Of a stretch of 64,000 nt of DNA, positions 20,907 to 63,323 are shown in pieces. The stretch spans positions 1-64,000 of the IMG/VR virus record IMGVR_UViG_3300046534_001281; one strand, 5' to 3'. Origin of the DNA: a virus. Every line of letters starts with the position of its first letter. Within the stretch, counting starts at the first letter, position 1. Made by a program: the position numbers and the translations under genes. The notes under the pieces were generated by a model. The model ran no database searches. It had not been told where the DNA came from and was given only the letters and a program-made list of their open reading frames with translations.

Positions 20907-21110
20907 ATGTTTATTTATATAAAAACCATATTCTTCTTTATATTGTTCCTCATAGCTCTCCCTTGGATCACTACGCGGGACATTATAACAGGGGATATAA
21001 AAATAAACTTGGAAAATAACAACACAGGAGCAAATAGTCTATATCTGACTTGTGTTTTTAGTTTAGTTATTCAGATTATTGTTATTGGTTTCTTAATTCG
21101 GTTATACTAG
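20907..21110 (+). CDS. Small membrane protein with two transmembrane segments (67 aa)
   Basis: ATG one base after the Nudix stop. Hydrophobic segments at residues 2-22 (FIYIKTIFFFILFLIALPWI) and about 46-64. The loop is polar. Its 3' end overlaps the convergent portal gene by four bases. Function unknown. Confidence 0.65.
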   Translation: MFIYIKTIFFFILFLIALPWITTRDIITGDIKINLENNNTGANSLYLTCVFSLVIQIIVIGFLIRLY

Positions 21111-23170
21111 ATTTCTTCTTCCTCTCCCTCGGGTGTTGGAGGAGCGGGTTCAGGCTCCAATCCTTCAGGCGGAACATCTTCAACAGGCTCTTCACCGAGA
21201 TCATCTAAAGCACCACCCGCATCTCCGAATTCGCCGACATCACCACCCCCACCGACACCCGAAGGTAAAGCAGAGCCACCACCCCCGACAGAACCCCCAT
21301 CAGCAGGGATACCCGCTTCTGCTTGAGCATCTGCTCTGAAGTTTGGACCACCTTCTTCGATATTGGTAAGTTCCCATAATTGAGCCGCTTCAATCTTTTT
21401 CCACTCATGGTTGGCTCTGATTTCGTTATCAGTCCAGCCAAGTTCTCTTTTGGCTAAGAACCAGAATGAGAATTGGGGATTTGAAATCAAAGCATTGAAG
21501 TTTTCTTGTTTAATACTTCTGAGTTGTTGCTCACGAAGTGCAAGAAAATTCGTAGGTAGGCTGAAACGAACTTTGATATCATTTTCTTTTAACTCAAATT
21601 GGCTCCAATAACTCATACCAAGAATCTTTTGGATATCGTCATCCGACTCTCCCGATTCTCTCAACTTCGGGGCATAAACTTGGTAGTGATAATTGCTCTC
21701 CACAAGTTTAATATGCTCTTCAAATAATTTGGCGGGATCTTCCAAATTAGGTTGACTCAATACCTCTCCTTTTTGGTTTGCCTCCATTATTAGGCTGTTT
21801 TGACAAGACTCGTTGTGTAGCTTTAAACCCTTAAGTTTTAAATGGGTTATCAAACTTTTTTTAATAGCATATGCAAACTTTTTCTGGACAGACTCAATTC
21901 TTTCGGCAAACGCCAATTCCTGCATCGTAATAGTTGTCCCGTCACTTTGTGCTGCATCGGGATTTAGTCTGGTAATAGGGACATGCATCGATGAATAAAC
22001 TTTTTGGTGGAAGTGATCTAACATACCGTTAAACCCCGAACCGAAAGCAGTAGAACCCGCTAAACGAGTAACAGAAGCTGCATTCCCATCCGATTTAGTG
22101 GGTATGTAAATATCCTCGGTAATACCCATTGGGTTGGTTTTCTCTGTAATAACACCAGTTGCATCAACACCCTTATTTTTTTTGTGGGCGTTCATAATAT
22201 TCTGCATGTAACGCTCTTCCGAGGGTCCGTCCATGTCTCCTGTAGGGATATTCCATAGAAGCCTCTCAGGGGCATTTACGAGAGCATTAATAACGATTGC
22301 ATCTTCGATCAAGGAAAGTTTTCTTTGTGCTTTCTGGCCTTTAAGGATATAAGGTATAACAAATTGACCATCTACATCCCATTCACCAGAGTTACAATAG
22401 GTAACCTGACTACGTGCCATAGGGATACTATCAAAAGAAGTAGTGGCTTGTTGCTTTCTCCTTTGATTACCTACCATATCATTGGCCGCATGTAAATCCG
22501 CATTGTTAGGCTTCCTTAACCAGAAAGCCTCGATTTCTTGGTTGTAGAAGTTTCTAAAAATTGGATCGACATTTTCTTGCGGAATTGCTTTGAAATCTAA
22601 AATACCCAACTCAGGTTTCTGGATAGAAAAAACGTTTTCAAAAGCCAATTCACCAGTGGTCACAAATTCAGTAAAATACTGCTGACCTTTCATATCAAGT
22701 TCGAAGAAGTCAACAATCTTTTGTAATTCTTTATTAATAATGTCCACAACCTTATCGTCGTAATCACCCTCAAGCTCAACAACGATAGGTTTTTCTTCAT
22801 GGGAAGATGCCAAACAAGAAATCGCAATTTCATGAACACAGCCTTCAATTTCTTGTTCTTTACCGAGTTCTCTATAATCGGTAATTCTTTGTTGTTTTTG
22901 ATTATTGAGGTTGAAACTCATCATCTGGCGAAATGACTTATCAGTCCAAATTGCCATAGTTGTTTTGTTACCGTCCTTACCTTTTAAGAATTCGGGGGTA
23001 ACGGTGGAAACTGCCAGCTTATCAGTCTTGCGCGATCTACTGTCACCAACTGCATCAATTATAGAAGCCTTTCTAATTGCCTTATCTAATTCGGCAGTTT
23101 TGGAAGGATCATTCGACTCGTTGTGTTCTGTTTTTTCACCACCGGAGTGTAAATTAAAGAAGTTGGGCAT
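21107..23170 (-). CDS. Portal vertex protein, T4 gp20-like
   Basis: 687 aa (T4 gp20 is 524). The middle matches gp20-family sequence: QEIEGCVHEI, DFFELDMKGQQYFTEFVTTGELAFE, LSLIEDAIVINALVNAPERLLWNI, IPTKSDGNAASVTRLAG, DHFHQKVYSSMHVPITRL, and ERIESVQKKFAYAIKKSLI. It forms the dodecameric DNA entry ring. The extra length is mainly a C-terminal tail of about 100 residues rich in Gly, Pro and Glu. Neighbouring protease, scaffold and capsid genes confirm the head module. Confidence 0.9.
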   Translation of the reverse strand: MPNFFNLHSGGEKTEHNESNDPSKTAELDKAIRKASIIDAVGDSRSRKTDKLAVSTVTPEFLKGKDGNKTTMAIWTDKSFRQMMSFNLNNQKQQRITDYRELGKEQEIEGCVHEIAISCLASSHEEKPIVVELEGDYDDKVVDIINKELQKIVDFFELDMKGQQYFTEFVTTGELAFENVFSIQKPELGILDFKAIPQENVDPIFRNFYNQEIEAFWLRKPNNADLHAANDMVGNQRRKQQATTSFDSIPMARSQVTYCNSGEWDVDGQFVIPYILKGQKAQRKLSLIEDAIVINALVNAPERLLWNIPTGDMDGPSEERYMQNIMNAHKKNKGVDATGVITEKTNPMGITEDIYIPTKSDGNAASVTRLAGSTAFGSGFNGMLDHFHQKVYSSMHVPITRLNPDAAQSDGTTITMQELAFAERIESVQKKFAYAIKKSLITHLKLKGLKLHNESCQNSLIMEANQKGEVLSQPNLEDPAKLFEEHIKLVESNYHYQVYAPKLRESGESDDDIQKILGMSYWSQFELKENDIKVRFSLPTNFLALREQQLRSIKQENFNALISNPQFSFWFLAKRELGWTDNEIRANHEWKKIEAAQLWELTNIEEGGPNFRADAQAEAGIPADGGSVGGGGSALPSGVGGGGDVGEFGDAGGALDDLGEEPVEDVPPEGLEPEPAPPTPEGEEEEI

Positions 23171-23225: not shown

Positions 23226-23900
23226 ATGGCTGATGCTTATAGATTGCTAATTGACACTCATTCTAATTCTTTTGTTGAACCTATTATGGAACAGGCGAAT
23301 AAAGATGAACCTAAAAAAATGTATCTAGAGGGGGTTTTTGCGGAAAGTGGTGTGAAAAATAAAAATGGACGTATTTACGATATCGAAGAGATGCGTAAAG
23401 ATGTTGAAAGATTTAATGTAGAGAAAGTTAAACAAGGTCGTTCGTGTAATGAAATGGAACATCCCAGCAATCCGTCGATTAATTATGAAAGAGTTTGTGA
23501 CAGGACGGTTGAGCTTAGAATGGAAAGCGACGGAACAGTATACGGTAAAGCTTTAATTTTAGATACGCCTATGGGTCGTTTAGAGAGAAGTTTGGTTGAC
23601 GGCGGGGTTCGTGTGGGTAAATCATCTAGAGCATTAGGCCAATTGACGGAGAAAGCTGACGGCAATCACGTAACAGGTATGCATATTGTTTGCCATGATT
23701 CTGTAGAAGATCCTAGCTGCATTAAAGCATTAGTAGATCCTCTAATGGAGAATAGAGAATGGATCATCGGTAGTGACGGAAATTATATGCCAATGGCTTT
23801 TGATAAATTGACTCAAGAACTTTCCACACTACCTAAACACAACAGGGAAGAATATTTCCTAGAATGTTTCCAAAATTTGATGAAGACCATCAAAGGTTAA
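23226..23900 (+). CDS. Prohead core protease, T4 gp21-like (peptidase S77)
   Basis: 224 aa, close to T4 gp21 (212). KNKNGRIYDIEEM (about residues 38-50) is the family's N-x-N-x-R-x-Y motif. CNEMEHPSNPSIN provides the catalytic His of the EHP motif, and GGVRVGKSSRALG the catalytic Ser. It cuts scaffold, capsid and internal proteins after (I/L)-x-E. Such sites are present in the capsid protein (I72-G-E74) and in the packaged protein candidates at 35.5-36.2 and 57-63 kb. Confidence 0.88.
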   Translation: MADAYRLLIDTHSNSFVEPIMEQANKDEPKKMYLEGVFAESGVKNKNGRIYDIEEMRKDVERFNVEKVKQGRSCNEMEHPSNPSINYERVCDRTVELRMESDGTVYGKALILDTPMGRLERSLVDGGVRVGKSSRALGQLTEKADGNHVTGMHIVCHDSVEDPSCIKALVDPLMENREWIIGSDGNYMPMAFDKLTQELSTLPKHNREEYFLECFQNLMKTIKG

Positions 23901-27053: not shown

Positions 27054-27944
27054 ATGGAAAAATTATTCGAGAGCCTATTCAGCGACCAAGAGGGTGTGTT
27101 TTCTGAATCTACCCAAAAATCTATTATGGAGGCATTCGATGCCAAAGTATTAGTAGTAGCCGAAGAAAGATCCATTCTCGCAACCGAAGCTATGGATAAG
27201 AGCCATACTATCATGTTACAGCAACTTGTAGAAAGTCACAATACAAAGCTTAAGACTGAATTGAAATCTCTTGAAGAGTCAATTGATACCGAGCATACAG
27301 AAAAGGTTGAAAACCTTTTTGTTAAGCTTGATGAAGATCGTGCCCACAAATTACAAGGGGTTAAAGATTACTACGAAGGTCTGCTTAATGAGTCTGTTAA
27401 GACCGAGAGTGATGTTCTGGTCGAAGCTGTTGATAAGTTTCTTGATACATGGTTGGAAGAAAAAGTTCCTACTGAGTTTCTAGAGGAAGCGGCTAAGAAA
27501 GATTATAGCCAAGACCTTCTTAAGAAGATTTCAAACCTAGTTGGTATTAATGAGTCGGTTGATTCTGATATCAGAGAAGGTCTTACGGATGCCCGCAATC
27601 TTATTGATCGCCAAAGCAAGATTATCGACGATCTTAAAAAGGATAACTTCCTTCGTGAATCTACTAACAAACTTCCAGTGCTTGAAAAACAGCAAATTAT
27701 GGAAAGCTTCGAAGGACACGACTTTGAATTTACTAAAAGGAATTTTAGTTTTCAACAAAAACAAATCTCTAAAGACAAAGAAGCTTCTGATCGTGTAGTT
27801 CAGGAACAAACTTCTAGTCAAAATGTTGATCAATCCCGAGTGCTTAATGAGCAAGTAGGGGTGGATAAAGAAGAGGAACCTAAATCTGTGTTGGCGGGTT
27901 GGGCAGAAATGTTAAATAGCGGTTACGGTGTTTACGGACGTTAA
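27054..27944 (+). CDS. Prohead core scaffold protein, T4 gp22-like
   Basis: 296 aa (T4 gp22 is 269). Directly upstream of the major capsid gene, as in T4. Nearly all charged helix (MEKLFESLFSDQEG, then Glu/Lys/Leu heptads from residue 45 to 150), as expected for a coiled-coil scaffold. It contains several (I/L)-x-E sites for the gp21-type protease. The C-terminus AGWAEMLNSGYGVYGR is typical of gp22-type proteins. It would be degraded and released during head maturation. Confidence 0.85.
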   Translation: MEKLFESLFSDQEGVFSESTQKSIMEAFDAKVLVVAEERSILATEAMDKSHTIMLQQLVESHNTKLKTELKSLEESIDTEHTEKVENLFVKLDEDRAHKLQGVKDYYEGLLNESVKTESDVLVEAVDKFLDTWLEEKVPTEFLEEAAKKDYSQDLLKKISNLVGINESVDSDIREGLTDARNLIDRQSKIIDDLKKDNFLRESTNKLPVLEKQQIMESFEGHDFEFTKRNFSFQQKQISKDKEASDRVVQEQTSSQNVDQSRVLNEQVGVDKEEEPKSVLAGWAEMLNSGYGVYGR

Positions 27945-27985: not shown

Positions 27986-29533
27986 ATGAATGCATATGAT
28001 ATCGACCTCACCTCGAAGCAACGCGAGGAAAGAGTCCTAAAGACATGGCAACCTCTTCTTGAATCCACAGATACAACTCTTCGTGGTTTCAAGAATACCA
28101 AACAGGCTGTCCAAACCGCTGTTCTCTTAGAGAATCAGTACCGCCACATGGCACAGAACCCAGATACTTATGGTGCTCTCCCTACCCTTAATCAGGTTAT
28201 CGGAGAATCCCTTAATACTCAAGGAACTTTCCATGCGTATGGTAATGGTGATGCTGCTTTTGGAGCAACACTTAATCAGCCAGTAAATGGCCAGTATGGT
28301 AATACTGTTTCCCCTACCAATAATGACTTCTATGCAAGAGGTGATGCTCGTCTTCCGAACGTGGTTATGCCAATGATTCGCAGAACGTTCCCAGAACTAC
28401 TTGCTAATGAGATTGTTGGAGTTCAGCCTATGTCTTCCCCCGTTGGAATGGCGTTTGCTCTTCGCTTCCAATATGATTCTGAGTCACTTGCTGATTTCTC
28501 TCCTGACGGCGGGAACACTGCTAACAGTGCCCCTCCTGCTTATAGAACTGCTAGTAATGGTGTTGAAGCATCACACAACCATCTTAACACTGCGTTCACC
28601 GGAACATTGAATGCCGATCTCGACGGTATCGAAGCTGGTGTATCTCAAGCTAACGGTGTTGATACTGATACTGCTGACTTTGCATACCCTGCACAAGATC
28701 AAGGTGTCGCTCGTCTACTCGCAGATGTTGAACTTACTACTGATATTCCTCAGATGAGTCTCACCATCGAAAAGACCGCAGTTGAAGCCGGTTCTCGTAA
28801 ACTTGCTGTTAAGTTCTCTTTGGAACTTGAGCAAGATCTTCAGAACATGCACTCAATCTCGGTTGATGATGAAATGACTAACATGATGTCTTATGAATTG
28901 CAAGCTGAAATTGATCGCGAGCTTCTTATGAGAATTATCAAGTCCACTCTTTCGGCTGGACCAGAACGTGGTTACACAATCTGGAATCCTGCTAATGCAG
29001 ATGGTCGTTGGTCCGCAGAACGTTCGGTTAACTTGTGGCAAGCAATTCGTGTTCAATCACGTTTGGTTGGTCTTCGTAACAGACGTGGAGCTGCCAACTT
29101 CGCAGTTGTAACTCCTTATGTTGCGGCTATCCTTGAAACTCTTCCTAACTTCAAAGCTTTCGAGATTGATGCAAACGTTGAGCAAGTATTCGGTAACTCT
29201 CGCGCAGGAACTCTTGGAGCACTTAAGGTGTTCGTTGATACCCGCTCTGAGTCTCAGTATCAGTCCGCTATCCGTGATACCCGTGTTGACTATATCCTTC
29301 TTGGTTATAAAGGCGCAGATACAGGTGATTGTGGTTTGGTTTATCTCCCTTACATCCCAGTTCAGGTGCAACGCACTATGGCTGCGAATGATTTCGGACA
29401 GAGAATCGGCCTATCCACTAGATATGCTATCGCCGCAAATTTGAACGGGTCTAGCAATTATTACCATATGATAATAATGAAAGGGCTTACTGACGGTATC
29501 GATGGAACCGAAACTAAGCAATTTGCTTGGTAA
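27986..29533 (+). CDS. Major capsid protein, T4 gp23-like
   Basis: 515 aa (T4 gp23 is 521). Conserved gp23 blocks are visible: VVMPMIRRTFPELLANEIVGVQPMSSPVGMAFALRF (about residues 126-161), NADGRWSAERSVNLWQAIR, and KGADTGDCGLVYLPYIPVQV near residue 460. I72-G-E74 is a good gp21-type maturation site, so mature protein would begin at about residue 75. Codon use is richer in G/C-ending codons than in its neighbours, consistent with high expression. A strong terminator follows. Confidence 0.95.
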   Translation: MNAYDIDLTSKQREERVLKTWQPLLESTDTTLRGFKNTKQAVQTAVLLENQYRHMAQNPDTYGALPTLNQVIGESLNTQGTFHAYGNGDAAFGATLNQPVNGQYGNTVSPTNNDFYARGDARLPNVVMPMIRRTFPELLANEIVGVQPMSSPVGMAFALRFQYDSESLADFSPDGGNTANSAPPAYRTASNGVEASHNHLNTAFTGTLNADLDGIEAGVSQANGVDTDTADFAYPAQDQGVARLLADVELTTDIPQMSLTIEKTAVEAGSRKLAVKFSLELEQDLQNMHSISVDDEMTNMMSYELQAEIDRELLMRIIKSTLSAGPERGYTIWNPANADGRWSAERSVNLWQAIRVQSRLVGLRNRRGAANFAVVTPYVAAILETLPNFKAFEIDANVEQVFGNSRAGTLGALKVFVDTRSESQYQSAIRDTRVDYILLGYKGADTGDCGLVYLPYIPVQVQRTMAANDFGQRIGLSTRYAIAANLNGSSNYYHMIIMKGLTDGIDGTETKQFAW

Positions 29534-35454: not shown

Positions 35455-36180
35455 ATGCCCAAGTTTAAAGAATTCTACCAAAGCTTTATCAAAGAGACTC
35501 CCGACTCTACCATAGACTCTGCCGGAAATATAGTAGATTATGATGACGTAGGGGAGACATATACCTTCCTTATAGATAAGAAAACGGGCGAAAGTATTTG
35601 GGCCAAAACTATACAAGATGGTCTATCGGTGACTCATAACAATTTGTATTCATGGGTTAGTTTTTCCAACACCCACGAAGATTATGAAGAATTTGGTATA
35701 GAGGTAATTAGCCATTTAGGTAAAGATTCCACCGAACGGCTTAAGATGAATGGTGCGGGTTCCAGCAGAACTGCCGATGGGACTTTTATAGGTGGTAGGA
35801 TTTTTAAAAGTTCCAACGTCATCTCGTTTTGGAATACAGAGGTTACCGTTAAAGAGCACTCAAAAATAATTAAAGATTTCATCGAAAATGACATGAAAAT
35901 GAATTCCGATGAAATTAACTACGATCTAATCGATATTGGTGGTAATAAAACTGCATCTACCTTATTCGGGACACAGGATGTTGATGAAGACAGGCTATCG
36001 CCAGAAGAGATCAAGAGATTGATGGAAATTCAACACATAGACCCATTAGCCAAGAAAAAGCTTAGACAGAATGCTGTGTTGGATGACGAAGGCACACCTA
36101 GAATGAGAGATTGGCGACACAACCTCATGAGGAGGTTGAGTGATAGTGTTGAGCATAATACAACAACTAAATTGGTATAA
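35455..36180 (+). CDS. Putative capsid-packaged protein, paralogue A
   Basis: 241 aa. Residues 1-14, MPKFKEFYQSFIKE, form a capsid-targeting-like peptide with an I-x-E cleavage site at residues 12-14. The body has a beta-rich domain (GGRIFKSSNVISFWNTEV) and a C-terminal SPEEIKRLMEIQHIDPLAKKKLRQNA. Both segments recur in the next gene, so the pair arose by duplication. No catalytic motif recognised. The late promoter supports expression when heads are assembled. Confidence 0.65.
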   Translation: MPKFKEFYQSFIKETPDSTIDSAGNIVDYDDVGETYTFLIDKKTGESIWAKTIQDGLSVTHNNLYSWVSFSNTHEDYEEFGIEVISHLGKDSTERLKMNGAGSSRTADGTFIGGRIFKSSNVISFWNTEVTVKEHSKIIKDFIENDMKMNSDEINYDLIDIGGNKTASTLFGTQDVDEDRLSPEEIKRLMEIQHIDPLAKKKLRQNAVLDDEGTPRMRDWRHNLMRRLSDSVEHNTTTKLV

Positions 36181-36188: not shown

Positions 36189-36857
36189 ATGCCCAAGTTT
36201 AAAGAATTCTATAATACCTTCCTCAAAGAATCTCCAGACACCTTCAAACATCAAGGTGAATCTATTCATTGGAAACAGGCAGGTAATGGTATAACTTTTA
36301 CTCTATGGAATGACCACGGGGTTTATGGTAATACCTCTGATGGAATTTTCCACGGACATACTACGGAGATTTTCACAGGAGAATTACCACACTCCAATTA
36401 CCCCGATGCGAAATGGTGGAACGGTGAGCCTACAAAGGACGTTAAGGAGGCTTTGAGGCAAATCAGTCACGGCTCTAAGGATGGCCTTTCGATCCACCGT
36501 GCGATGGATGGTAAGGTTCTAGCGGGTAGGGTATTTCCTAAATATAAAACTATTAGTTTTTGGAATACTGCGGAAGAAGGTTTGAGAGATGTCAAGATGT
36601 TGGAAAGTTTCTTGAAAGATATTGGTGTCGAAATGACAGATTATGCATATGATTTTATCAACAAGAAAGACCCGATCCAATTTGGACAAAACGGAGCAGC
36701 AACGAATGATGGTGATTTGTCAAAGGAAGAGATCGATGAGCTTATGCAGGTTCAACACTTTGACCCGATAGCAAAGAAAAAGCTTAGACAGAATGCTGGA
36801 TACATAAAGTCTAAGCTCCCCCTTGGTTATAGCGTATTCAGTAGAAATTCAGATTAA
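36189..36857 (+). CDS. Putative capsid-packaged protein, paralogue B
   Basis: 222 aa. MPKFKEFYNTFLKE (L-x-E at residues 12-14) repeats the leader of paralogue A almost exactly. LAGRVFPKYKTISFWNT and SKEEIDELMQVQHFDPIAKKKLRQNA align with the same segments in A, while the middles have diverged. No enzyme motif is visible. Probably packaged in the prohead and released by the gp21-type protease. Confidence 0.65.
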   Translation: MPKFKEFYNTFLKESPDTFKHQGESIHWKQAGNGITFTLWNDHGVYGNTSDGIFHGHTTEIFTGELPHSNYPDAKWWNGEPTKDVKEALRQISHGSKDGLSIHRAMDGKVLAGRVFPKYKTISFWNTAEEGLRDVKMLESFLKDIGVEMTDYAYDFINKKDPIQFGQNGAATNDGDLSKEEIDELMQVQHFDPIAKKKLRQNAGYIKSKLPLGYSVFSRNSD

Positions 36858-53542: not shown

Positions 53543-53551
53543 GTTCTTGTT

Positions 53552-54220: not shown

Positions 54221-54227
54221 AAAGTTC

Positions 54228-54255: not shown

Positions 54256-54261
54256 AAAGAT

Positions 54262-54380: not shown

Positions 54381-54454
54381 TTAGTTTAATTACAGTGATA
54401 TGTATCGTATTCCTTTTCGAAGGTGTCCACCTACTAAATTTTCCCCTAACCAAA

Positions 54455-54664: not shown

Positions 54665-54668
54665 AATT

Positions 54669-54857
54669 ATGATACAGAAAACTATCAAAGAAACAATCAT
54701 GGAACGAGATCAGATCTCTTCAACCGAAGCTGATGAATTGATCCAAGATGCGGTCGAAGATTTCAGGGAAAATCCTGATGATCCAGAAGAGACTCTACAG
54801 GAGTGGTTTGGGCTGGAACCTGACTGGGTTATTGAGTTCCTTTACCTCACCACTTAA
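54669..54857 (+). CDS. Hypothetical acidic 62-aa protein
   Basis: MIQKTIKETIMERDQISSTEADELIQDAVEDFRENPDDPEETLQEWFGLEPDW: a small helical protein with a pattern seen in phage hypotheticals (I-x-x-T-E-A-D-E-L-I). Four bases after its neighbour. Confidence 0.6.
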   Translation: MIQKTIKETIMERDQISSTEADELIQDAVEDFRENPDDPEETLQEWFGLEPDWVIEFLYLTT

Positions 54858-54892
54858 ACACAAAGAAATCCGAGCTATAATAAGATCCTCTT

Positions 54893-55441
54893 ATGAAAGA
54901 ACTAATAAGAAAATTAATGGATCGCTCATTCAAAAAGGGGTCAAAATTCGACACATCCTATATTGAGTATAGACTTGAAGAAAGTTTTATAACAAACAAT
55001 TCTATTAAATTTACTTTTGTTGATAAAAATGTTTTTGAAGATGTCGGGTTAGGTAAAACTGTGTGTTTAGGGGTAAGGTCTTTATGTGTCGATAAATTGG
55101 ATGATCCTGTGGCAGAGATTGAGTGTGAATTTAAATTGCGAATTATTCAAATGTGTCTTAACCATGAAAGGTTTACCACAACGGACAATTTACCTGAAGC
55201 CAAACCCAATCAATGGGTGATTAACGGAATTACGGGGGATGTTAAATACAGAATAATTGGCACATCTCCAGCTTTAAAAATATATTGCGGGGATTTCATT
55301 TATATGGATAACGTCAATGTTTATAGGAGTAGATATGCGCATGAACCCCTTACTGGCGACTCGTTTTTATACATTTTAAAAAATAATGGAGATGGTGTGA
55401 TAAATACACCAAAGCAAAATAATACGAAAATGCTTGTATAA
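54893..55441 (+). CDS. Hypothetical 182-aa protein
   Basis: Preceded by TATAAT eleven bases upstream with a poor -35. Mixed composition (VCLGVRSLCVDKLDDPVAEIECEFKLRIIQ). No family recognised. Confidence 0.6.
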   Translation: MKELIRKLMDRSFKKGSKFDTSYIEYRLEESFITNNSIKFTFVDKNVFEDVGLGKTVCLGVRSLCVDKLDDPVAEIECEFKLRIIQMCLNHERFTTTDNLPEAKPNQWVINGITGDVKYRIIGTSPALKIYCGDFIYMDNVNVYRSRYAHEPLTGDSFLYILKNNGDGVINTPKQNNTKMLV

Positions 55442-55466
55442 ACAGCCCTCGAATTACAGAAAGTCC

Positions 55467-55495
55467 TTGACGTAAATCCAAAACCCTGTTAATTT
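55467..55495 (+). promoter_or_regulatory. Early promoter
   Basis: TTGACG, 17 bases, TAATTT, nine bases to ATG 55505. Confidence 0.8.
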
Positions 55496-55504
55496 CTCCT
55501 CGTT

Positions 55505-55789
55505 ATGATAAACCTCACATTCTCTCAAACCAAAGCATTCATCACAATCTGCAAGGCAGAACTTAGCGTTATCGATACGGAGGATAGTTTGTATCCTGAC
55601 GAGTATTGTGTCAAGGTGGACAATCCTGAAGATTTCAAGGCTCTCATTGATTCGGGTTTGGTTGGCTCTTGGAAGAATGGAGTTTGTGGTAAAACTACCA
55701 CCGAAGGCTGGTTGGCTATGGCCACTAGAAAGGGTATGGAAAAATATCTTGGGGAGGAGTCTTTCCGCGACATTTACAACTGCATCTAA
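55505..55789 (+). CDS. Hypothetical 94-aa protein
   Basis: MINLTFSQTKAFITICKAELSVIDTED, then KVDNPEDFKALIDSGLVGSWKNGVCGKTTTEGWLAMATRKG. No family recognised. Confidence 0.65.
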   Translation: MINLTFSQTKAFITICKAELSVIDTEDSLYPDEYCVKVDNPEDFKALIDSGLVGSWKNGVCGKTTTEGWLAMATRKGMEKYLGEESFRDIYNCI

Positions 55790-55813
55790 ATTCAGTTTAA
55801 TACACCTTTTATC

Positions 55814-55842
55814 TTGACCCAAACCCAAAATCGTGCTAATCT
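55814..55842 (+). promoter_or_regulatory. Early promoter of the AAA+ gene
   Basis: TTGACC, 17 bases, TAATCT, nine bases to ATG 55852. Confidence 0.8.
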
Positions 55843-55851
55843 TTCCTCGTT

Positions 55852-57045
55852 ATGAAAAACCTCCTCTCACAAGAAGATGCCCAAGCAATCGTTTCCAAGG
55901 CTAGCAACATCTACGGTAGCCGTTTTGGATCAACCCTAGCCAACGTCATTAACGTTCCGCCAGTCTATGTTTCAAAGGTGAAAAAGTTCGCATCATCTGG
56001 AGACGTTACAGACCTCCCTTCGAAGAATTGCTTCGCCAAGTTCCTCGCTTTCCTCGGCTCTTCTAATAAAGAAGCTCCGATCAAGCCAGCCAACAACCCT
56101 AGTAATTCGGCGGAATATGGTCTCGTAGTTACTCTCAAAAACAAAAAGACCAACCGGTTTGAATCTGGTGTCTCGGTTTCCGATGCGGATCTTAAAGAGC
56201 ATTACAATGGTGATCTTGGCTCGGATTCAGCTTTGACTGATGCGGAGATTTTGAATGAGATTCAAACCAACTTCAATATCGTTCGTCGCTCAGTTTCGTC
56301 AATGTTCTCCGAGAATGGTTGCGTATCTGGCCTCGTAGTGTCCGGTCCCGCTGGTTGCGGTAAGTCCTTTAACATCGAACAGCAGATTAAAGAGGAAGCA
56401 GTAAAGGCTGATATAGACTTCAAGGTGACCCATCTCAAGGGGGCTAACATGTCCTATACTGGACTGTATTCTCTCCTCTTCAAACATCGCAACGGTGGAG
56501 TCATCGTATTTGATGACTCCGACAAGCTTTGGGAAGACTCCGACATGCTTAACACCTTCAAGGCTGCAATGGATACGTCCTCAAAGCGTTTCCTTTCTAA
56601 TGCTAGTGGTGGTCGCTGGGTTCAAGATTTGGCAGACTCCGAAGGTGTTGAACTTGAGGATGTTCGTGAGTTTGAATTCAAAGCCAAGATCATCTTCATC
56701 ACCAACAAAGATATCGGTGTTCACGTAGAAGCTAAGAAGAAGAACCATGAGCACTTCGCAGCCATCATCGACCGTTCACTCTATATTGACCTTGAGATGT
56801 TCTCACTTCGCGCCAAGTATCTCTGGTGTGAGTATGTCTTCATGGACTTTATCGCACCGCAGTTGGGATTCTCCGATGACCTTACATTGGAAGTGATGGA
56901 GTATGTTTCGGACAATCGCTACAACCTCCGTGACGTTAGTGTTCGCGGAATTGAAATGATTGCCAAGTTCGCTGCTGATCCTGAGTTCAAAGATGGAGCT
57001 TGGAAGACTTTGATTCGTAAGACCAAGTTCAAGAAGAACCGCTAA
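55852..57045 (+). CDS. AAA+ ATPase
   Basis: 397 aa. An N-terminal domain of about 150 residues is followed by Walker A VSGPAGCGKSFN (about residues 161-172), Walker B GGVIVFDDSDKLW (about 210-222) and a sensor-1-like IIFITNKD (about 277-284). Clearly a AAA+ fold, possibly of the phage ATPase group that acts as chaperone or unwinding factor. Well-adapted codons suggest strong expression. A terminator follows. Confidence 0.8.
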   Translation: MKNLLSQEDAQAIVSKASNIYGSRFGSTLANVINVPPVYVSKVKKFASSGDVTDLPSKNCFAKFLAFLGSSNKEAPIKPANNPSNSAEYGLVVTLKNKKTNRFESGVSVSDADLKEHYNGDLGSDSALTDAEILNEIQTNFNIVRRSVSSMFSENGCVSGLVVSGPAGCGKSFNIEQQIKEEAVKADIDFKVTHLKGANMSYTGLYSLLFKHRNGGVIVFDDSDKLWEDSDMLNTFKAAMDTSSKRFLSNASGGRWVQDLADSEGVELEDVREFEFKAKIIFITNKDIGVHVEAKKKNHEHFAAIIDRSLYIDLEMFSLRAKYLWCEYVFMDFIAPQLGFSDDLTLEVMEYVSDNRYNLRDVSVRGIEMIAKFAADPEFKDGAWKTLIRKTKFKKNR

Positions 57046-57062
57046 ATTTTATCATAACACCG

Positions 57063-57102
57063 AGAATTCCCTTCAGGCTGAGTGGTCTGGAGGGAATTTT
57101 CA
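57063..57102 (+). terminator. Intrinsic terminator
   Basis: GAATTCCCTTCAG and CTGGAGGGAATT arms followed by TTTTC. Confidence 0.8.
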
Positions 57103-57126
57103 TTTACTCGAAGGATCGAAATCGAC

Positions 57127-57786
57127 TTAATTGAGCGGATCGAAAATAACTAAACCTCCGGCGCTGTCAAAACCAAAATTTTCTTCATGGATGTCGTTTT
57201 GAGCCACCCCTTTAATCCCCATTATGGTCTGTCCAAACTCCACCACTTGGGCATATGTCCTACCATACTCCCGAAACAACGCATCTAACTCTTCAATTAA
57301 ACCCCTATCTTCCGCAAAACTATCCCCTCTCATGATGTCATGAACAATTTCCTGTAAGTCCATAACTTTAGTGATAGATAATAATTCCCTACCAAATTCA
57401 TAGTTACGGTCCTCATCCACCACTAGACGCTCCATAACATATAGTTCAACCTCCTCATCAAGAGAAAGACTTGCGTGTTTTAATATACGAGGGAATAAAG
57501 GATTTGATAAACTCTGCTCCTTGGAAGCAAATGTTTTGAATAGCGGATCATCAAAAGCTAGCTTAACAACATAACCGCCAGATGAACCACTATACACATC
57601 AGCAAAACTACCTCCACCGATCCATTTACCGCCAAGCTTCGTTATATATTCCGAAGCCTTATCCTTCCACTCTGAAGCACTATCAGAACTAAAACGACTC
57701 ATATCAGTTAAATCCTTAATGATCTTATTGGCCAGTGAAAGTCGCTCCTCAATCACAGTTTCGTAATAATCTTTGAATTCACCCAT
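57127..57786 (-). CDS. Protein-kinase-like protein with capsid-targeting-like leader (kinase A)
   Basis: 219 aa from MGEFKDYYETVIEERL; a longer frame adds seven residues upstream of the late box. The leader has I-x-E at 12-14. The kinase core: Gly-rich loop GGKWIGGGSFADVY (52-65), Lys75 in GGYVVKLAF, hinge YVMERL (about 116-121), catalytic loop NDIHEENFG with Asp198, His200 and Asn203, and metal-binding Asp216 in VIFDP. All four catalytic residues are present. The core is short (about 170 aa), like APH or lipopolysaccharide-kinase-type folds. Late promoter, opposite to flanking early genes. Confidence 0.7.
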   Translation of the reverse strand: MGEFKDYYETVIEERLSLANKIIKDLTDMSRFSSDSASEWKDKASEYITKLGGKWIGGGSFADVYSGSSGGYVVKLAFDDPLFKTFASKEQSLSNPLFPRILKHASLSLDEEVELYVMERLVVDEDRNYEFGRELLSITKVMDLQEIVHDIMRGDSFAEDRGLIEELDALFREYGRTYAQVVEFGQTIMGIKGVAQNDIHEENFGFDSAGGLVIFDPLN

Positions 57787-57791
57787 ATAAC

Positions 57792-57797
57792 TATTTA
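57792..57797 (-). promoter_or_regulatory. Late promoter element TAAATA (minus strand)
   Basis: Five bases before the kinase A start. Confidence 0.45.
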
Positions 57798-57860
57798 CCC
57801 CAAACAAACACCCAGATCGAAAAGCGTCAAATCCAGATATATTACAAAGAATCTCCGAAA

Positions 57861-57941
57861 ATGACCCTAGCTGAGATTCACCAAGATTTAAACCACTTCA
57901 AGCAAGATGAAGAAAAAACTGGATTTATGGGATTTAGTTAA
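57861..57941 (+). CDS. Possible 26-aa peptide
   Basis: MTLAEIHQDLNHFKQDEEKTGFMGFS. No matching promoter; included because the composition is protein-like and the gap is otherwise empty. Confidence 0.3.
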   Translation: MTLAEIHQDLNHFKQDEEKTGFMGFS

Positions 57942-57950
57942 AGAAAGATC

Positions 57951-57979
57951 TTGATTTAAAACCAAAATGGGGTTAAGAT
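57951..57979 (+). promoter_or_regulatory. Early promoter
   Basis: TTGATT, 17 bases, TAAGAT, nine bases to ATG 57989. Confidence 0.75.
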
Positions 57980-57988
57980 CGCCTCGTT

Positions 57989-58537
57989 ATGAAAAACTCC
58001 ATCACCGCAAACGAAGAGATCCAAAACTTCATCAAAGATCTTCGCGAAAAGACTGCACTTATTAGCAACATCCACATTTGCCCTGTTTCTAGCTCCGCAT
58101 CATTTAGCGGTGGTTACACCCGTATCAATATTGAATTTTACCGCAAGGGTCAACGTTCAAAAGATTTCCGATCATGGGTTTCGGTTGACAAAGACGGGAA
58201 GTGGCAAGCTAAACTCGAAGCTAAACTCGAATTAGCTAAAATTGAGCTTGACAAAGAGTTTGAACTTCGTGCTGCCCGTGAAAAGGCTATAAATGACAAA
58301 AAGGCTAAAATTGTTACCCTTGTAACCAAATATGGCACACGTTTGGTTGAGTTGGGTGTGTGGTCTTCCATTGAAGCTAGGGGGCCTTCTCGGCACCACA
58401 AGTCTAAGATTGAGGTGCAGGAGTTGTCTTCTGGTGGTCATATTTTAGTATTTCTTGGAAAGAAATTTCCAATCGACAAGTTGGAAGAATTGGCACAGGC
58501 AGAGGCAACCGTCAATGATATTCTTGAAAAGATTTAA
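57989..58537 (+). CDS. Hypothetical 182-aa protein with coiled coil
   Basis: Residues 70-105 form charged heptads (KWQAKLEAKLELAKIELDKEFEL), partly created by a 12-bp tandem repeat (AAGCTAAACTCG, 58206-58229). C-terminal GGHILVFLGKKFPIDKLEELAQAEATVNDILEKI. No family recognised. Confidence 0.65.
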   Translation: MKNSITANEEIQNFIKDLREKTALISNIHICPVSSSASFSGGYTRINIEFYRKGQRSKDFRSWVSVDKDGKWQAKLEAKLELAKIELDKEFELRAAREKAINDKKAKIVTLVTKYGTRLVELGVWSSIEARGPSRHHKSKIEVQELSSGGHILVFLGKKFPIDKLEELAQAEATVNDILEKI

Positions 58538-58559
58538 AGGAAAATATATCCCCTTTACT

Positions 58560-58588
58560 TTGACAAGGTAACTAAAATGGGTTACCTT
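58560..58588 (+). promoter_or_regulatory. Early promoter with palindromic operator
   Basis: TTGACA, 17 bases, TACCTT, nine bases to ATG 58598. Arms ACAAGGTAAC / GTTACCTTGT at 58563-58590. Confidence 0.8.
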
Positions 58589-58597
58589 GTCTTCGTT

Positions 58598-58693
58598 ATG
58601 AAAAACAAAGAAGCAATCGCAGTCATCATCGCAGAAGGGCGGAAGTCATTCACCGACCCTAAATTAGCTTCAGAAGCGGAACCATCATACTGA
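58598..58693 (+). CDS. Short 31-aa protein (possibly truncated)
   Basis: MKNKEAIAVIIAEGRKSFTDPKLASEAEPSY from the promoter-selected ATG. It may be a real micro-protein or the start of a decayed gene; the next gene follows after 56 bases in another frame. Confidence 0.4.
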   Translation: MKNKEAIAVIIAEGRKSFTDPKLASEAEPSY

Positions 58694-58749
58694 TGCTGCC
58701 AGTCTTCGTGCAATGCTTTAAACTTGCACGAGTTAGATTAAATAATACT

Positions 58750-59055
58750 ATGGACAGCACAAAAGCCAAAAAACTAATCAAAGATAATGGTGGCTCTGTA
58801 TTTAAGACAGAAGATGGATGGAGTGCAAGGCTCGCCACTTCAGATGAGTATGAACTTTTCACAGACCGCGAATTGATCAAGGTTGCTAGAGATTACTATA
58901 CTTCGGAAAACATCCGAAGCTATAAAAAATACGTTAAACAATTCGGAAGAAGGAAAAACCGCAGAGCCACTAGGGATGCTATCGCCCACGAAAACTTCGA
59001 GTCTATTCCCCCAAATAAACGGACCAAAGATGAGGATGTCTGGGGCTGGGATTAA
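58750..59055 (+). CDS. Hypothetical basic 101-aa protein
   Basis: MDSTKAKKLIKDNGGSVFKTEDGWSARL with a basic C-terminal half (YKKYVKQFGRRKNRRATRD). Its 3' end overlaps that of kinase B by four bases. No family recognised. Confidence 0.6.
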   Translation: MDSTKAKKLIKDNGGSVFKTEDGWSARLATSDEYELFTDRELIKVARDYYTSENIRSYKKYVKQFGRRKNRRATRDAIAHENFESIPPNKRTKDEDVWGWD

Positions 59056-59693
59056 GAAATCGGGTCGAATATAACCAGACCACCTTCGTTATCAAATCCG
59101 AAGTTTCCGCCATGTGCATCATTTCTGGTGTTTCCGACTATCTTACTCAGATGCATTGCAAAGTCTCTCAAATCATCATAGCTCCGGTTCACCTGTTTTA
59201 AAACAGCATCAACCTTATCGATTTGATCTCGGTAAAGATGTCCACCTTCAGCCAAACGAGATATGATGCCCTTTAAATCCATACCAATCTCTTCTTTAAG
59301 AGTGTCGATCAATTTATAATTGAAGTCACGGTCAACCTTCAACCTCTGGATAATATAAACACCGATTGTTGTTGTGTCGATTTTGTATTGTTTTCCGTGT
59401 AGGATTTTAGGGAAGATTGGGTTAGCTATACCGCCAATACCTTCAAAGAATTGGTGGTAACGTCTATCGTCTTCAGATATCCTAACAACATAACCACCTG
59501 TCTTGCCGCCATAGACATCAGCAAAAATTCCACTGTCAATGTGTTCACCTTTACTAGACAGCAATCCCTCCATTTGTTTTATAAATTCTGCCACATTAGA
59601 TTGGTCTAGATTGTCAATCTCTTCTACAATATGGCTTGCTATGTCAAGCCTTTCCTCTACTAGATTTTGATAATATGTCTTGAAAGAACCCAT
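59052..59693 (-). CDS. Protein-kinase-like protein with capsid-targeting-like leader (kinase B, altered Lys)
   Basis: 213 aa. Leader MGSFKTYYQNLVEERL with L-x-E at 11-13. Gly-loop GEHIDSGIFADVY (about 49-61), GGYVVR with Arg71 where kinases A and C have Lys, hinge YIIQRL, catalytic loop NDAHGGNFG (Asp192, His194, Asn197), and Asp210 in VIFDP. The missing Lys could make it a weak kinase, a pseudokinase or an enzyme of altered chemistry. Late promoter. Confidence 0.68.
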   Translation of the reverse strand: MGSFKTYYQNLVEERLDIASHIVEEIDNLDQSNVAEFIKQMEGLLSSKGEHIDSGIFADVYGGKTGGYVVRISEDDRRYHQFFEGIGGIANPIFPKILHGKQYKIDTTTIGVYIIQRLKVDRDFNYKLIDTLKEEIGMDLKGIISRLAEGGHLYRDQIDKVDAVLKQVNRSYDDLRDFAMHLSKIVGNTRNDAHGGNFGFDNEGGLVIFDPIS

Positions 59694-59699
59694 AGTAAG

Positions 59700-59705
59700 T
59701 AATTA
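59700..59705 (-). promoter_or_regulatory. Late promoter element TAATTA (minus strand)
   Basis: Six bases before the kinase B start. Confidence 0.5.
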
Positions 59706-59728
59706 CTTGAATTTTGTTTCAAATTCCC

Positions 59729-59757
59729 TTGACTAGTGACACAACCCAGAATACTAT
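59729..59757 (+). promoter_or_regulatory. Promoter with a long structured leader
   Basis: TTGACT, 17 bases, TACTAT. The leader of about 145 bases to ATG 59908 contains AAAATAAT/ATTATTTT around AGG/CCT and TCTTT/AAAGA stems, then a CCC/GGG hairpin. This is unlike the leaderless early genes and could be a regulatory RNA element. Confidence 0.55.
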
Positions 59758-59907
59758 AAGAATATACCTTACCCCAGTAAGCGGAAAATTTAGTCAAAAT
59801 AATGTAGGTAGTCTTTTATACAAAGAAACCTGATTATTTTAACAAAAAGAGACAAATAAAATACCCGTAATACTAGGGGGTGGTTACATCAGGCCAAAAC
59901 AAATAAA

Positions 59908-60168
59908 ATGAATAATACAGTGAACTATAACCCGAAGAAAACGAATGCATACACCCATCATTGTGGTGACTTGTTTGAGGATCGCAGAGATGGAGAAATC
60001 TACATATTGATTAACTATTTCTTTGAGGCTAAACGCTTATACGGATTGTTCTGTCTTGAAGATGGCACAGTTTACGATGATGGACTGGAGCTAGTAAATG
60101 GACTACTCCCCTCCGAGGCTGTGGAAGATCTAAACCACCTTGGAAAAAGACATATCGAAATATCCTGA
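59908..60168 (+). CDS. Hypothetical 86-aa protein
   Basis: TNAYTHHCGDLFEDRRDGEIYILINYFFEAKRLYGLFCLEDGTVYDDG. No family recognised. Follows the structured leader and precedes the QueC-like gene. Confidence 0.6.
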   Translation: MNNTVNYNPKKTNAYTHHCGDLFEDRRDGEIYILINYFFEAKRLYGLFCLEDGTVYDDGLELVNGLLPSEAVEDLNHLGKRHIEIS

Positions 60169-60193
60169 CATTCCCTTAAATCTACACTAGAAT
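60165..60193 (+). promoter_or_regulatory. Early promoter upstream of the QueC-like gene
   Basis: CTGACA, 17 bases, TAGAAT, nine bases to ATG 60203 (a short leader frame). Confidence 0.65.
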
Positions 60194-60202
60194 AACTTCG
60201 AT

Positions 60203-60247
60203 ATGATTACAGTAACACCCAAAGAATTAAGAACTGTAGTGGTTTAA
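60203..60247 (+). CDS. 14-aa leader peptide
   Basis: The start selected by promoter spacing opens MITVTPKELRTVVV, which stops three bases before the QueC-like ATG. Probably permits re-initiation or attenuates translation. Confidence 0.35.
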   Translation: MITVTPKELRTVVV

Positions 60248-60250
60248 AGT

Positions 60251-60910
60251 ATGAGTATATTAATACCTTGGAGTGGCGGATTGGATTCGACCAAGCTGCT
60301 CATTGATGCATTGGCTGCTGGCCATACCGTCTATCCAGTCTATTTTGAATGTAAAAACAACGTTGCCAAAACCAAGAAGGAAAAGTCGGCAATCAAAAAG
60401 ATCCACAAGTCTTTGATGAAACGTTATAAAGATACGCTCACGGATATCAAGTTCCCCGTAACTATATTTCTGAACGTATGCACGGAAGAGGTAACCTTGA
60501 AGCAACCTCCACTCTGGGTGTTGGGCATCATCTACTCAATCACTAAAGATATAGATGAAGTTCATATCGGTTATGTTCAGAACGACTGCGCCGTCTCTTG
60601 GATACAGGAAATCAAAAAGCTTTACCAATCTTACAAGCCGTTCACTTCCCTCAAGAAACTACCGAAACTAAAGTTTCCCCTTATTAAAGAATACAAGAAT
60701 AGTATCTGGAAATCATTAGAACATTATGACTTCGAGAGGCAGAACACTCATTTCTGTGAATATGGCGCGGATTGCGGGGAATGCGAACCTTGTAAGAGAT
60801 ACAAATATGATGGGTTGTTTGAAGTTTATAATAGGAACAAACCCTTAGCCTCAGCCATTAATTCAGTAGATCATTTAAACCCGATAGAAGAAACAATACA
60901 AATACCTTGA
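60251..60910 (+). CDS. QueC-like PP-loop protein (7-cyano-7-deazaguanine synthase family)
   Basis: 219 aa, the typical QueC size. IPWSGGLDSTKLLID (residues 5-19) is the PP-loop S-G-G-L-D-S motif. CEYGADCGECEPCKRY at about 181-196 matches the C-terminal four-Cys zinc site. QueC makes preQ0; phages use preQ0-derived bases to protect DNA. No QueD, QueE or transglycosylase (DpdA) is seen in this window, so the pathway is incomplete here. Confidence 0.7.
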   Translation: MSILIPWSGGLDSTKLLIDALAAGHTVYPVYFECKNNVAKTKKEKSAIKKIHKSLMKRYKDTLTDIKFPVTIFLNVCTEEVTLKQPPLWVLGIIYSITKDIDEVHIGYVQNDCAVSWIQEIKKLYQSYKPFTSLKKLPKLKFPLIKEYKNSIWKSLEHYDFERQNTHFCEYGADCGECEPCKRYKYDGLFEVYNRNKPLASAINSVDHLNPIEETIQIP

Positions 60911-61164
60911 AAAACCAAATAACAATTCAATTCCCAACAGAAGAACACGCCAAACGATTCGCTAGTTGGCTATGTAATGCAGGTGAACAAGATTACTATG
61001 AAGATATGTATGAACAAAACCACAGACAACCTATCGAAGAAGTCAACCTATGTTATCATGGGGTAGAAGATACTGAGCTTGCCTTAAATGATGCCAAGCG
61101 TTATGGTAAATTCATGGAAGATGGTATCGTCCGCGCCATCGGTAGAGAAAATCCCGTCTGGTAG
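60907..61164 (+). CDS. Hypothetical 85-aa protein
   Basis: Starts with TTG overlapping the QueC-like stop (TTGA), the only start in this frame near the gap. ITIQFPTEEHAKRFASWLCNAGEQDYYEDMYEQ and an acidic C-terminus. A non-ATG start in a coupled overlap is plausible. No family recognised. Confidence 0.5.
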   Translation: MKNQITIQFPTEEHAKRFASWLCNAGEQDYYEDMYEQNHRQPIEEVNLCYHGVEDTELALNDAKRYGKFMEDGIVRAIGRENPVW

Positions 61165-61178
61165 AAATAATTGAGCCG

Positions 61179-61919
61179 TTAACCTAATTTGGTTTGCCAC
61201 TCATTCATTATATCGTGAAACTCTTGTGTTGTCTTTGTGGTCCTGTAAGGAATGCTATCAACCTTTAGGCGACTTGTTATCTGTGAAAACTTACGTTCCG
61301 ACTCAACATATTGCCAATTCACAATAGCCTCAACAACCTCATAGTTATCAACGACAACCTCATTGTATCCATATGCGGAGTCAATGAAAATGTCATGAGA
61401 TGAGTAGAACTTGGATATGTTGTTCAAGAACCATGCCTCTAATGCTTTGATGTATTGATTCACATCCTTGGAACCGTCCACTATACTTTTCAAGTCGGTC
61501 TTATCTTCGATATCCAGCCTACTATTCTTAAGAATGGTGGTAATAGGTATCCATCGCAAACCACCATTATCGGGTAGTGAACCCATATCACTCCTTCTAC
61601 CAAAGAGTGCTCGCCCTTTCAAGATTAAAGCATTGCCCATACTCTGAACACCAAGAAAATTCTTTTCAAAGCTTGTGGTTGTGGATAGTTGTCTCCTTCT
61701 GGTGTTCTGACTATCCAACACATTTATAAGACCATCCGAATCTGTGAAGTGCGCAACCAACATTGGATGGAACCAACCCAAGGCTTTTGACACAGTAGGG
61801 GTAAGCGGTAAATTTATAGATTCCTCTTTTGAGAGATCAACAGCAGATCTTTGCCATTTAGCACTAATCTTACTTTTCTCCAAAATAAGGTCATCGTAAT
61901 ACTGCTTAAAGCTGGTCAT
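61179..61919 (-). CDS. Late protein with capsid-targeting-like leader; possible ADP-ribosyltransferase
   Basis: 246 aa. Leader MTSFKQYYDDLILEK with I-x-E at 12-14. The body has LVAHFTDSDGLINVLDSQNTRRRQLSTTTSF (about residues 54-84) and SAYGYNEVVVDNYEVVE (about 181-197). An R..STT..E order is what arginine- or DNA-targeting ADP-ribosyltransferases show (R-S-E class), and T4 injects such an enzyme, Alt. The match is by motif only and the assignment is tentative. Perfect TATAAATA late promoter. Confidence 0.5.
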   Translation of the reverse strand: MTSFKQYYDDLILEKSKISAKWQRSAVDLSKEESINLPLTPTVSKALGWFHPMLVAHFTDSDGLINVLDSQNTRRRQLSTTTSFEKNFLGVQSMGNALILKGRALFGRRSDMGSLPDNGGLRWIPITTILKNSRLDIEDKTDLKSIVDGSKDVNQYIKALEAWFLNNISKFYSSHDIFIDSAYGYNEVVVDNYEVVEAIVNWQYVESERKFSQITSRLKVDSIPYRTTKTTQEFHDIMNEWQTKLG

Positions 61920-61924
61920 ATCTT

Positions 61925-61932
61925 TATTTATA
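61925..61932 (-). promoter_or_regulatory. Late promoter TATAAATA (minus strand)
   Basis: Exact T4 late core five bases before the ATG at 61919. Confidence 0.65.
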
Positions 61933-61976
61933 CTAAACTCATTGACTACTAGGTTCTCGTTGTTTTAATAACTTAG

Positions 61977-62005
61977 TTGTATTGTTGTATTGTTTCTGTT
62001 AGCAT
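61977..62005 (+). promoter_or_regulatory. Early promoter
   Basis: TTGTAT, 17 bases, TAGCAT, nine bases to ATG 62015. Confidence 0.65.
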
Positions 62006-62014
62006 AACGGGACA

Positions 62015-62617
62015 ATGAACCCATTCAGAATTACCCTATTCGATGTTGAAACCACAGGATTTCTTAATAAAGACAATCGACTTGTTCAATTCGCAGCACA
62101 CTCTTTGATGTTGCACCCTACCAACTTCCAAGCTTTCACGGTGCAGGAATTCTCATCTCTTGTGAAATGTGATATTCCCGTTCCAGACAGAGCCAGATCG
62201 ATTCATGGAATATCACAAGCAATGACTAGATTTGGTGTAGATGAAAAATCAATCTGCCGATGGTTCAATAATGCTTGTAATACTTCAGATTATATGGTGG
62301 CTCACAACTATAGTTTTGACCACAATTTCATGGAGGAAGTCTTCACAAGAAACAAACTCATCTTTCCAGACATTAAGAACAAGATCTGCACAATGAGAGA
62401 ATCCGCCGAGTTCTGTCAGATACCCAAGAACAACAACATAACAGGTTACAAACACCCAAAGCTAATTGAACTACACCAACATCTGTTTAATGAAGGATTT
62501 GATGGAGCACACGATGCCCTTGTAGATGTCAAGGCCACTAAGAGATGTTTGGTTGAGTTAATCGCCCAAGGCGTTATAAAACTCAACCATACCGAAGACT
62601 TACTCAGTAACATCTAG
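62015..62617 (+). CDS. DnaQ-like 3'-5' exonuclease (DEDDh)
   Basis: 200 aa. LFDVETTGF (Exo I, residues 8-16), VAHNYSFDHNFM (Exo II) and GAHDALVDVKAT (Exo III, H-D-A-x-x-D) give the DEDDh set. Resembles the DNA polymerase III epsilon-type and RNase T-type exonucleases of phages. Could proofread or trim DNA or RNA. Confidence 0.85.
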   Translation: MNPFRITLFDVETTGFLNKDNRLVQFAAHSLMLHPTNFQAFTVQEFSSLVKCDIPVPDRARSIHGISQAMTRFGVDEKSICRWFNNACNTSDYMVAHNYSFDHNFMEEVFTRNKLIFPDIKNKICTMRESAEFCQIPKNNNITGYKHPKLIELHQHLFNEGFDGAHDALVDVKATKRCLVELIAQGVIKLNHTEDLLSNI

Positions 62618-62648
62618 TCAGAATTAAAGCAATCAAATCTTTGTGAAG

Positions 62649-63311
62649 TTAAGAGATCGGATCGAAAAACACCAATCCACCAGAAGAGTCCAAACCAAAG
62701 TTTTCATGATGCAGGTCATTCTCATGATGACCGGTGATCTTGAAAAATAATCTGGCGAAATCATAGAATTCATCAAAAGTTCTATTATACTTCTCAAAGA
62801 ATGCATCGATCTGATCCTGTTTACCAAGAGACAGGTAATAGTATTGTTTCTTCAGTATATTCTCTATAAAATCTTCGAACCCATACTGTGATCCGGTTAT
62901 ATCCTCAAGCTCTCCAAGAATTGCCAAGTTTCGATTTTCGCTAACAACAAGACGCTCCAGAACATAGATGTCCATCATACGCTCCAACTGAATAGAGCGA
63001 TGTTCCACTATCTTTGGAAGGAATGGATTATCATCGCCTTGAATCCCTTTATAGAATTTTCTAAATGCGGTATCGTTATTGGCAATCTTCACAACATAAC
63101 CACCAGATTCACCACCATAGACAGAAGAGAAGAAACCTTTACCTAAAAACTTACCACCCGCCTCCTTCAATATTGCTTCGGCTTGATCCATGAATTCATA
63201 TTCGTGGTCTGTTTGTATATTGGATAGTTCATCGGCAATAGCAGTTGCAATGGATCGCTTTTCTAGTAAGGTGGAAAGTTGTTGATCTACAAATGATTCG
63301 AATTTACTCAT
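62649..63311 (-). CDS. Protein-kinase-like protein with capsid-targeting-like leader (kinase C)
   Basis: 220 aa from MSKFESFVDQQLSTLLEKR, with L-x-E at 15-17; a longer frame adds 11 residues but starts upstream of the late box. Gly-loop GGKFLGKGFFSSVY (52-65), Lys75 in GGYVVKIAN, hinge YVLERL, catalytic loop NDLHHENFG (Asp199, His201, Asn204), and Asp217 in VFFDP. The core parallels kinase A throughout, including NPFLPKIVEH. Late promoter. Confidence 0.7.
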   Translation of the reverse strand: MSKFESFVDQQLSTLLEKRSIATAIADELSNIQTDHEYEFMDQAEAILKEAGGKFLGKGFFSSVYGGESGGYVVKIANNDTAFRKFYKGIQGDDNPFLPKIVEHRSIQLERMMDIYVLERLVVSENRNLAILGELEDITGSQYGFEDFIENILKKQYYYLSLGKQDQIDAFFEKYNRTFDEFYDFARLFFKITGHHENDLHHENFGLDSSGGLVFFDPIS

Positions 63312-63315
63312 AATA

Positions 63316-63323
63316 TTAATTAT
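63316..63323 (-). promoter_or_regulatory. Late promoter element ATAATTAA (minus strand)
   Basis: Four bases before the kinase C start. Confidence 0.5.

Follow-up and report, generated by a model that had tools for sequence, protein, structure and literature searches.

The subject of this report is a 64,000-nucleotide window of viral DNA (positions 1-64000 of the 71,813-base IMG/VR record IMGVR_UViG_3300046534_001281, classed as linear and probably a fragment, the remainder of which was also read) and four minus-strand genes within it, between positions 57,127 and 63,311, three of which encode kinase-like proteins. To judge from their sequences and from analogy with phage T4, the kinases are probably head cargo that is injected into the host. 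More likely than not, the record represents a T4-type phage with an expanded set of kinases of the T7 gp0.7 type as head cargo, which would phosphorylate host proteins at DNA entry; they would belong to a broader, modular arsenal, built on a cassette of late promoter box and N-terminal leader peptide that accepts many enzymes. The record (G000) has gp20, gp21 and gp23 genes of T4 type and comes from an uncultured T4-type virus of bacteria; a DNA similarity search of the region against known phages found nothing. A related 70-kb contig (G001) and a further record (G002) served for comparison. The four genes are listed with their leaders and lengths in amino acids (aa).

57127..57786, minus strand: kinase-like protein 1 (leader MGEFKDYYETVIEE, 219 aa; ATG at 57786; phrog_15752 match, E 4.8e-5)
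59052..59693, minus strand: kinase-like protein 2 (leader MGSFKTYYQNLVEE, 213 aa; phrog_15752 match)
61179..61919, minus strand: leader-bearing protein (MTSFKQYYDDLILE, 246 aa), a possible ADP-ribosyltransferase (ART) by motif (HFT...STTTS...YNEVVV)
62649..63311, minus strand: kinase-like protein 3 (leader MSKFESFVDQQLSTLLE, 220 aa; ATG at 63311; phrog_15752 match, E 3.4e-7)

A kinase family related to T7 gp0.7

The sequence-only reading had recognized three kinase-like proteins by the motifs of a short kinase core, and the predicted kinase domain is now well supported because motifs, profile matches, profile alignment and structural model agree. A fourth paralogue lies just past the end of the window (record positions 64979-65671), the three other copies in the record being 36-38% identical to kinase-like protein 1, and G001 encodes a fifth copy with the leader MQSFKSYFLTE. 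All five retain the glycine loop, GG(Y/F)VV(K/R), D-x-H-x-x-N-F-G and F-D-P, and end no more than one residue after F-D-P-(I/L)-(S/N); the four in the record share without change G53, G59, F61, V64, GGYVV, D198-x-H200-x-x-N203-F-G and F-D-P, and the lysine position after VV is occupied by K or R across the kinases. The profile phrog_15752 (T7 gp0.7) matches all four kinases of the record (E 5.5e-12 to 2e-4) and the G001 copy (E 2.6e-4), and gave no match in 14 control genomes. Aligned by hhalign with six gp0.7 proteins, that of T7 included, the kinases match over the whole kinase core (probability 95.6, E 1.1e-8), taking in the G-loop, K, DxHxxN and DP(I/V)S. By sequence homology the kinases belong to the T7 gp0.7 kinase-domain family, and by analogy with gp0.7 their substrates would be proteins. 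The structural comparison with the kinase fold that the sequence-only reading had proposed was also favourable: an AlphaFold model built from the five sequences (pLDDT 76, pTM 0.73) found, by Foldseek in a viral library, phage proteins as its top matches, several of them named protein kinase (probability 1.00, best E 6e-6).

The same model fared less well against the PDB, where Foldseek returned weak matches to kinases and aminoglycoside phosphotransferases (E 7e-3, TM about 0.3). The presence of APH(2'') enzymes among the best of these, together with the occurrence of D-x-H-x-x-N in aminoglycoside phosphotransferases as well, would suit small-molecule kinases of that type instead of protein kinases; this is improbable, the specific sequence and profile relatives being the T7 gp0.7 protein kinases and the homology stopping just past FDPIS, where the kinase core of gp0.7 ends. 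Still less credence is given to the idea that the proteins are pseudokinases, packaged as decoys that bind and inhibit a host defence enzyme without catalysis. T4 internal proteins do specifically inhibit GmrSD enzymes (PMC12373910), but in a decoy some catalytic residues should have been lost, and five copies at 34-40% identity all keep the catalytic D and N and the metal-binding D, with K or R at the lysine position.

Relatives of the kinases proved scarce. Single-protein searches of phages and IMG/VR gave nothing or weak gp0.7 matches; PDB sequence searches gave no meaningful match; kinase profile patterns yielded no confirmed hit in bacterial and archaeal genomes; a wider kinase DNA pattern recovered the G001 copy alone from IMG/VR; and a scan of other leader-bearing contigs found no kinase outside G000 and G001. 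Membership of the Kinase-PolyVal family was considered and rejected, PF18762 matching nothing in G000, G001 or G002 at E 10.

Late promoters, leader peptides and T4-type head genes

The proposal, made from the sequence, of four late minus-strand genes lying interleaved with early ones is well supported because the two classes differ in their promoters. A TAAATA or TAATTA box resembling the T4 late promoter TATAAATA stands 5, 6, 5 and 5 nucleotides before the four ATGs:

57787..57797, minus strand: late promoter-like TAAATA, ending 5 nucleotides ahead of the ATG of kinase-like protein 1
59694..59705, minus strand: late promoter-like TAATTA, ending 6 nucleotides ahead of the ATG of kinase-like protein 2
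61920..61930, minus strand: late promoter-like TAAATA, ending 5 nucleotides ahead of the ATG of the 61179..61919 gene
63312..63322, minus strand: late promoter-like TAATTA, ending 5 nucleotides ahead of the ATG of kinase-like protein 3

In a count that took in all 2423 ATGs of the record, the box occurs 32 times at exactly 5 nucleotides from the ATG and 0-5 times at every other spacing from 0 to 29, and the same peak is present in G001 and G002. It also stands ahead of the genes for the portal, the protease and the protein in scaffold position, and of all genes with a strict leader (see below); individual examples lie before 66207, 69402, 27054 and 23226 on the plus strand and before 23170 and 61919 on the minus strand. 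The head and protease genes are listed here.

21107..23170, minus strand: gp20-type portal protein (PF07230, E 2.8e-61; box 5 nucleotides before the ATG)
23226..23900, plus strand: prohead protease of the gp21 type (Peptidase_S77; PF03420, E 3e-18; box 5 nucleotides before the ATG), predicted to do the processing
27054..27944, plus strand: probable scaffold, by its position between protease and capsid genes (box present; no convincing family match)
27986..29533, plus strand: gp23-type major capsid protein (PF07068, E 2.3e-77), with a VIGE/S motif near the T4 gp23 cleavage position

When other late-box genes were searched against PHROG for head functions, one gene matched, to a family of unknown function. 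Many of the interleaved plus-strand genes instead have a TTGAC-type promoter, TTGAC favouring a position 33 nucleotides before the ATG; these genes fit sigma70-type early promoters, and their mRNAs would also be nearly leaderless. The early plus-strand genes at 42000-58000 also have a recurring tail ahead of the ATG, for example CTTCGTT or ATCGTT, and hardly any Shine-Dalgarno motifs. Since T4 late promoter geometry places the transcription start at or near the A of the ATG in boxed genes, the late mRNAs would be leaderless, the promoter being apparently fused to the start codon in a T4-type phage. A Shine-Dalgarno-like motif precedes only 3 of 72 genes without a box.

The common N-terminal peptide that had been claimed for the four genes and for a pair at 35.5-36.2 kb was found on all six proteins, which read MGEFKDYY, MGSFKTYY, MTSFKQYY, MSKFESFV, MPKFKEFY and MPKFKEFY from their ATGs. 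In its strict form, M(x)0-3F(K/E)x(F/Y)(F/Y/V/I/L), the leader is present in 11 of the 114 genes of the record, against a mean of 0.11 and a maximum of 3 in 5000 shuffles. All 11 of these genes are boxed (10 at 5 nucleotides, one at 6), and the leader is absent from the 86 genes without a box (Fisher 3.3e-8). This excess, the perfect link with the box and recurrence in other contigs make it hardly conceivable that the set is a chance run of unrelated open reading frames with aromatic N-termini and no common signal, even though the motif, when relaxed, also fits a few T4 proteins that are not known to be cargo. The looser pattern was dropped as main evidence, having also matched T4 lysozyme, gp53 and 57B.

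The leader resembles the T4 capsid-targeting sequence, and its reading as a T4-like packaging leader is supported. In the T4 record ipII and ipIII start MKTYQEFIAEA and ipI starts MKTFKEF. With some 10 residues, the T4 sequence suffices to bring virtually any protein joined to it into the head, and the maturation protease cleaves it off (PMC7697877), and T4 head cargo enters the host by injection (PMC12373910). The T4 DNA end protector gp2 (L019:16062-16886, minus strand) starts MAIFQIINES, which is leader-like with an I-N-E/S site.

Several observations weigh against packaging, trimming and injection of the kinases. The (I/L)-x-E site that had been noted at residues 11-17 is indeed present after the leader, but in all five kinases it is followed by K or R; T4 cleavage sites prefer A, G or S after (I/L)xE. 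The AlphaFold model has a single helix across residues 3-30, through the putative cut site. Because of these two features trimming is uncertain, and the kinases may not be trimmed. They are also acidic (isoelectric point 4.5-5.2), in contrast to the basic internal proteins of T4. Finally, few records show leader and T4-type head together, because gp23 and the S77 protease were both found in only 3 of 33 longer leader-bearing contigs, most contigs being fragments, and neither was found in the G001 fragment.

The residue after the site, suggesting a possible lack of processing, also bears on another account, in which late kinases stay in the cell that makes them and act there on structural or assembly proteins of the phage or on late functions of the host, without being injected; the leader would then only dock them on the scaffold. 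The late box and a scaffold-docking leader fit this account equally well, but it is judged unlikely: the leader is also borne by GNAT, ART-like and ASCH-like proteins and by many nameless families, for which a common role in assembly is not to be expected, and the T4 proteins with such a leader are injected head cargo (PMC7697877, PMC12373910).

Diversity of the leader-bearing proteins

Spread of the cassette was gauged with a DNA pattern of box plus leader, which was found in at least 118 IMG/VR contigs, ahead of 24 unrelated protein families; the pattern fixed the leader letters, and thus shows the spread of the cassette and not variation of the leader. An (ILVFM)xE site is present in 16 of the 24 families, compared with 6.7 in shuffles. 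The commonest of the IMG/VR leader families is without a relative in the phage records searched, as is the ART-like protein of G001.

Beyond the window (L005:4980-9810, record positions 64979-69809) the fourth kinase is followed by more leader genes, including one whose product has KptA/ART-type likeness (66207-66800; PF01885, E 0.013) and one with ASCH likeness (69402-69809; PF04266, E 0.009). Other leader proteins of G000 and G001 resemble GNAT (E 9e-6) and ART-PolyVal (two proteins, E 3.5e-6 and 0.08), all of these matches falling below the curated cut-offs, and ParB-like and metallopeptidase-like labels on leader proteins come from inspection only. The G001 kinase stands in a run of leader genes (L016, G001:60654-67829, minus strand) that includes other domains as well, among them GNAT and ART-like ones, so that a related phage follows the same cargo logic. 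By inspection, leader proteins in L020, L049, L128 and L034 look like a response-regulator receiver domain, two 2H phosphoesterases and a P-loop kinase. The pair at 35.5-36.2 kb bears the leader, has a homologue in G002 and shows no known fold.

35455..36180, plus strand: leader-bearing protein (MPKFKEFYQSFIKE, 241 aa), paralogue of the 36189..36857 gene product
36189..36857, plus strand: leader-bearing protein (MPKFKEFYNTFLKE, 222 aa), with a G002 homologue at L007:16311-16997 (minus strand)

The fourth of the minus-strand genes in question (61179-61919) had been read as encoding an ART. The STT and E type of motif is present, but the protein has no match to an ART family in Pfam, PHROG or NCBIfam, homologue searches found none, and its structural model (pLDDT 32) is unusable. 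It is a candidate ART by a motif read by eye; other leader-bearing proteins in G000 and G001 weakly resemble members of the ART superfamily.

Proposed delivery and comparison with known systems

In the proposed mechanism, the four minus-strand genes would be late genes producing head cargo, the F-K-x-(Y/F)-(Y/F) peptide would draw the proteins into the prohead core as a T4-type capsid-targeting sequence, the gp21-type protease may cut the leader off, and the cargo would enter the host together with the DNA. Three of the four proteins, and the paralogue past the window, are predicted to be minimal protein kinases that match the kinase domain of T7 gp0.7; after delivery they would phosphorylate host proteins, be it of transcription, RNA decay, translation or defence, from time zero. 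If so, phages deliver kinases with their DNA, much as some large eukaryotic viruses carry kinases in the virion, and phosphorylation in the host starts ahead of all phage gene expression. The leader joined to the late box would then also be a practical search tag for candidate injected effectors of uncultured phages where sequence similarity fails.

No direct precedent was found in the open literature for packaged phage kinases or for leaderless T4-type late genes. The suggestion that no set of head-packaged kinases had been described was nevertheless partly anticipated, as a T7 relative is known in gp0.7 and as injected kinases have been predicted in polyvalent phage proteins (PMC5512222); what differs here is the arrangement, an expanded kinase set of separate proteins, each with its own box and leader. 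Iyer et al. 2017 (PMC5512222) predicted that these injected kinases lack the C-terminal subdomain (C-lobe-less), and listed ART, GNAT, ParB and metallopeptidase domains as co-injected. The kinases of the Kinase-PolyVal family (PF18762) are thus alike in being predicted to be injected without that subdomain and in the overlapping kinds of co-injected domain, and unlike in that polyvalent proteins form one long chain.

The kinase domain itself is homologous to that of T7 gp0.7 (phrog_15752), with the G-loop, K, D-x-H-x-x-N and (T/F)-D-P-(V/I)-S in common, whereas most gp0.7 members have a C-terminal extension that is missing here, and the record has four paralogues, all of them provided with a late box and a head-type leader. 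The gp0.7 of T7 is produced early, once the DNA has entered the cell.

Comparable in the proposed delivery are the T4 internal proteins IPI, IPII and IPIII, which have a short M-x-x-(F/Y)-(K/Q)-E-F leader on unrelated late proteins and a gp21-type protease in the same genome. They differ in the residue after the putative cut, in the Shine-Dalgarno-like AAGGAAA of the ip genes where mRNAs here look leaderless, and in that those characterised are small GmrSD inhibitors without recognisable catalytic domains (PMC12373910). T4 Alt provides the precedent of an enzyme that is packaged, injected and active in modifying host proteins (PMC5512222, PMC9503650), although it is an ART and not a kinase, and no similarity to known ART families could be detected in the 61179-61919 protein. 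By analogy, the delivery proposed for the kinases would be that of the classical T4 internal proteins and of Alt.
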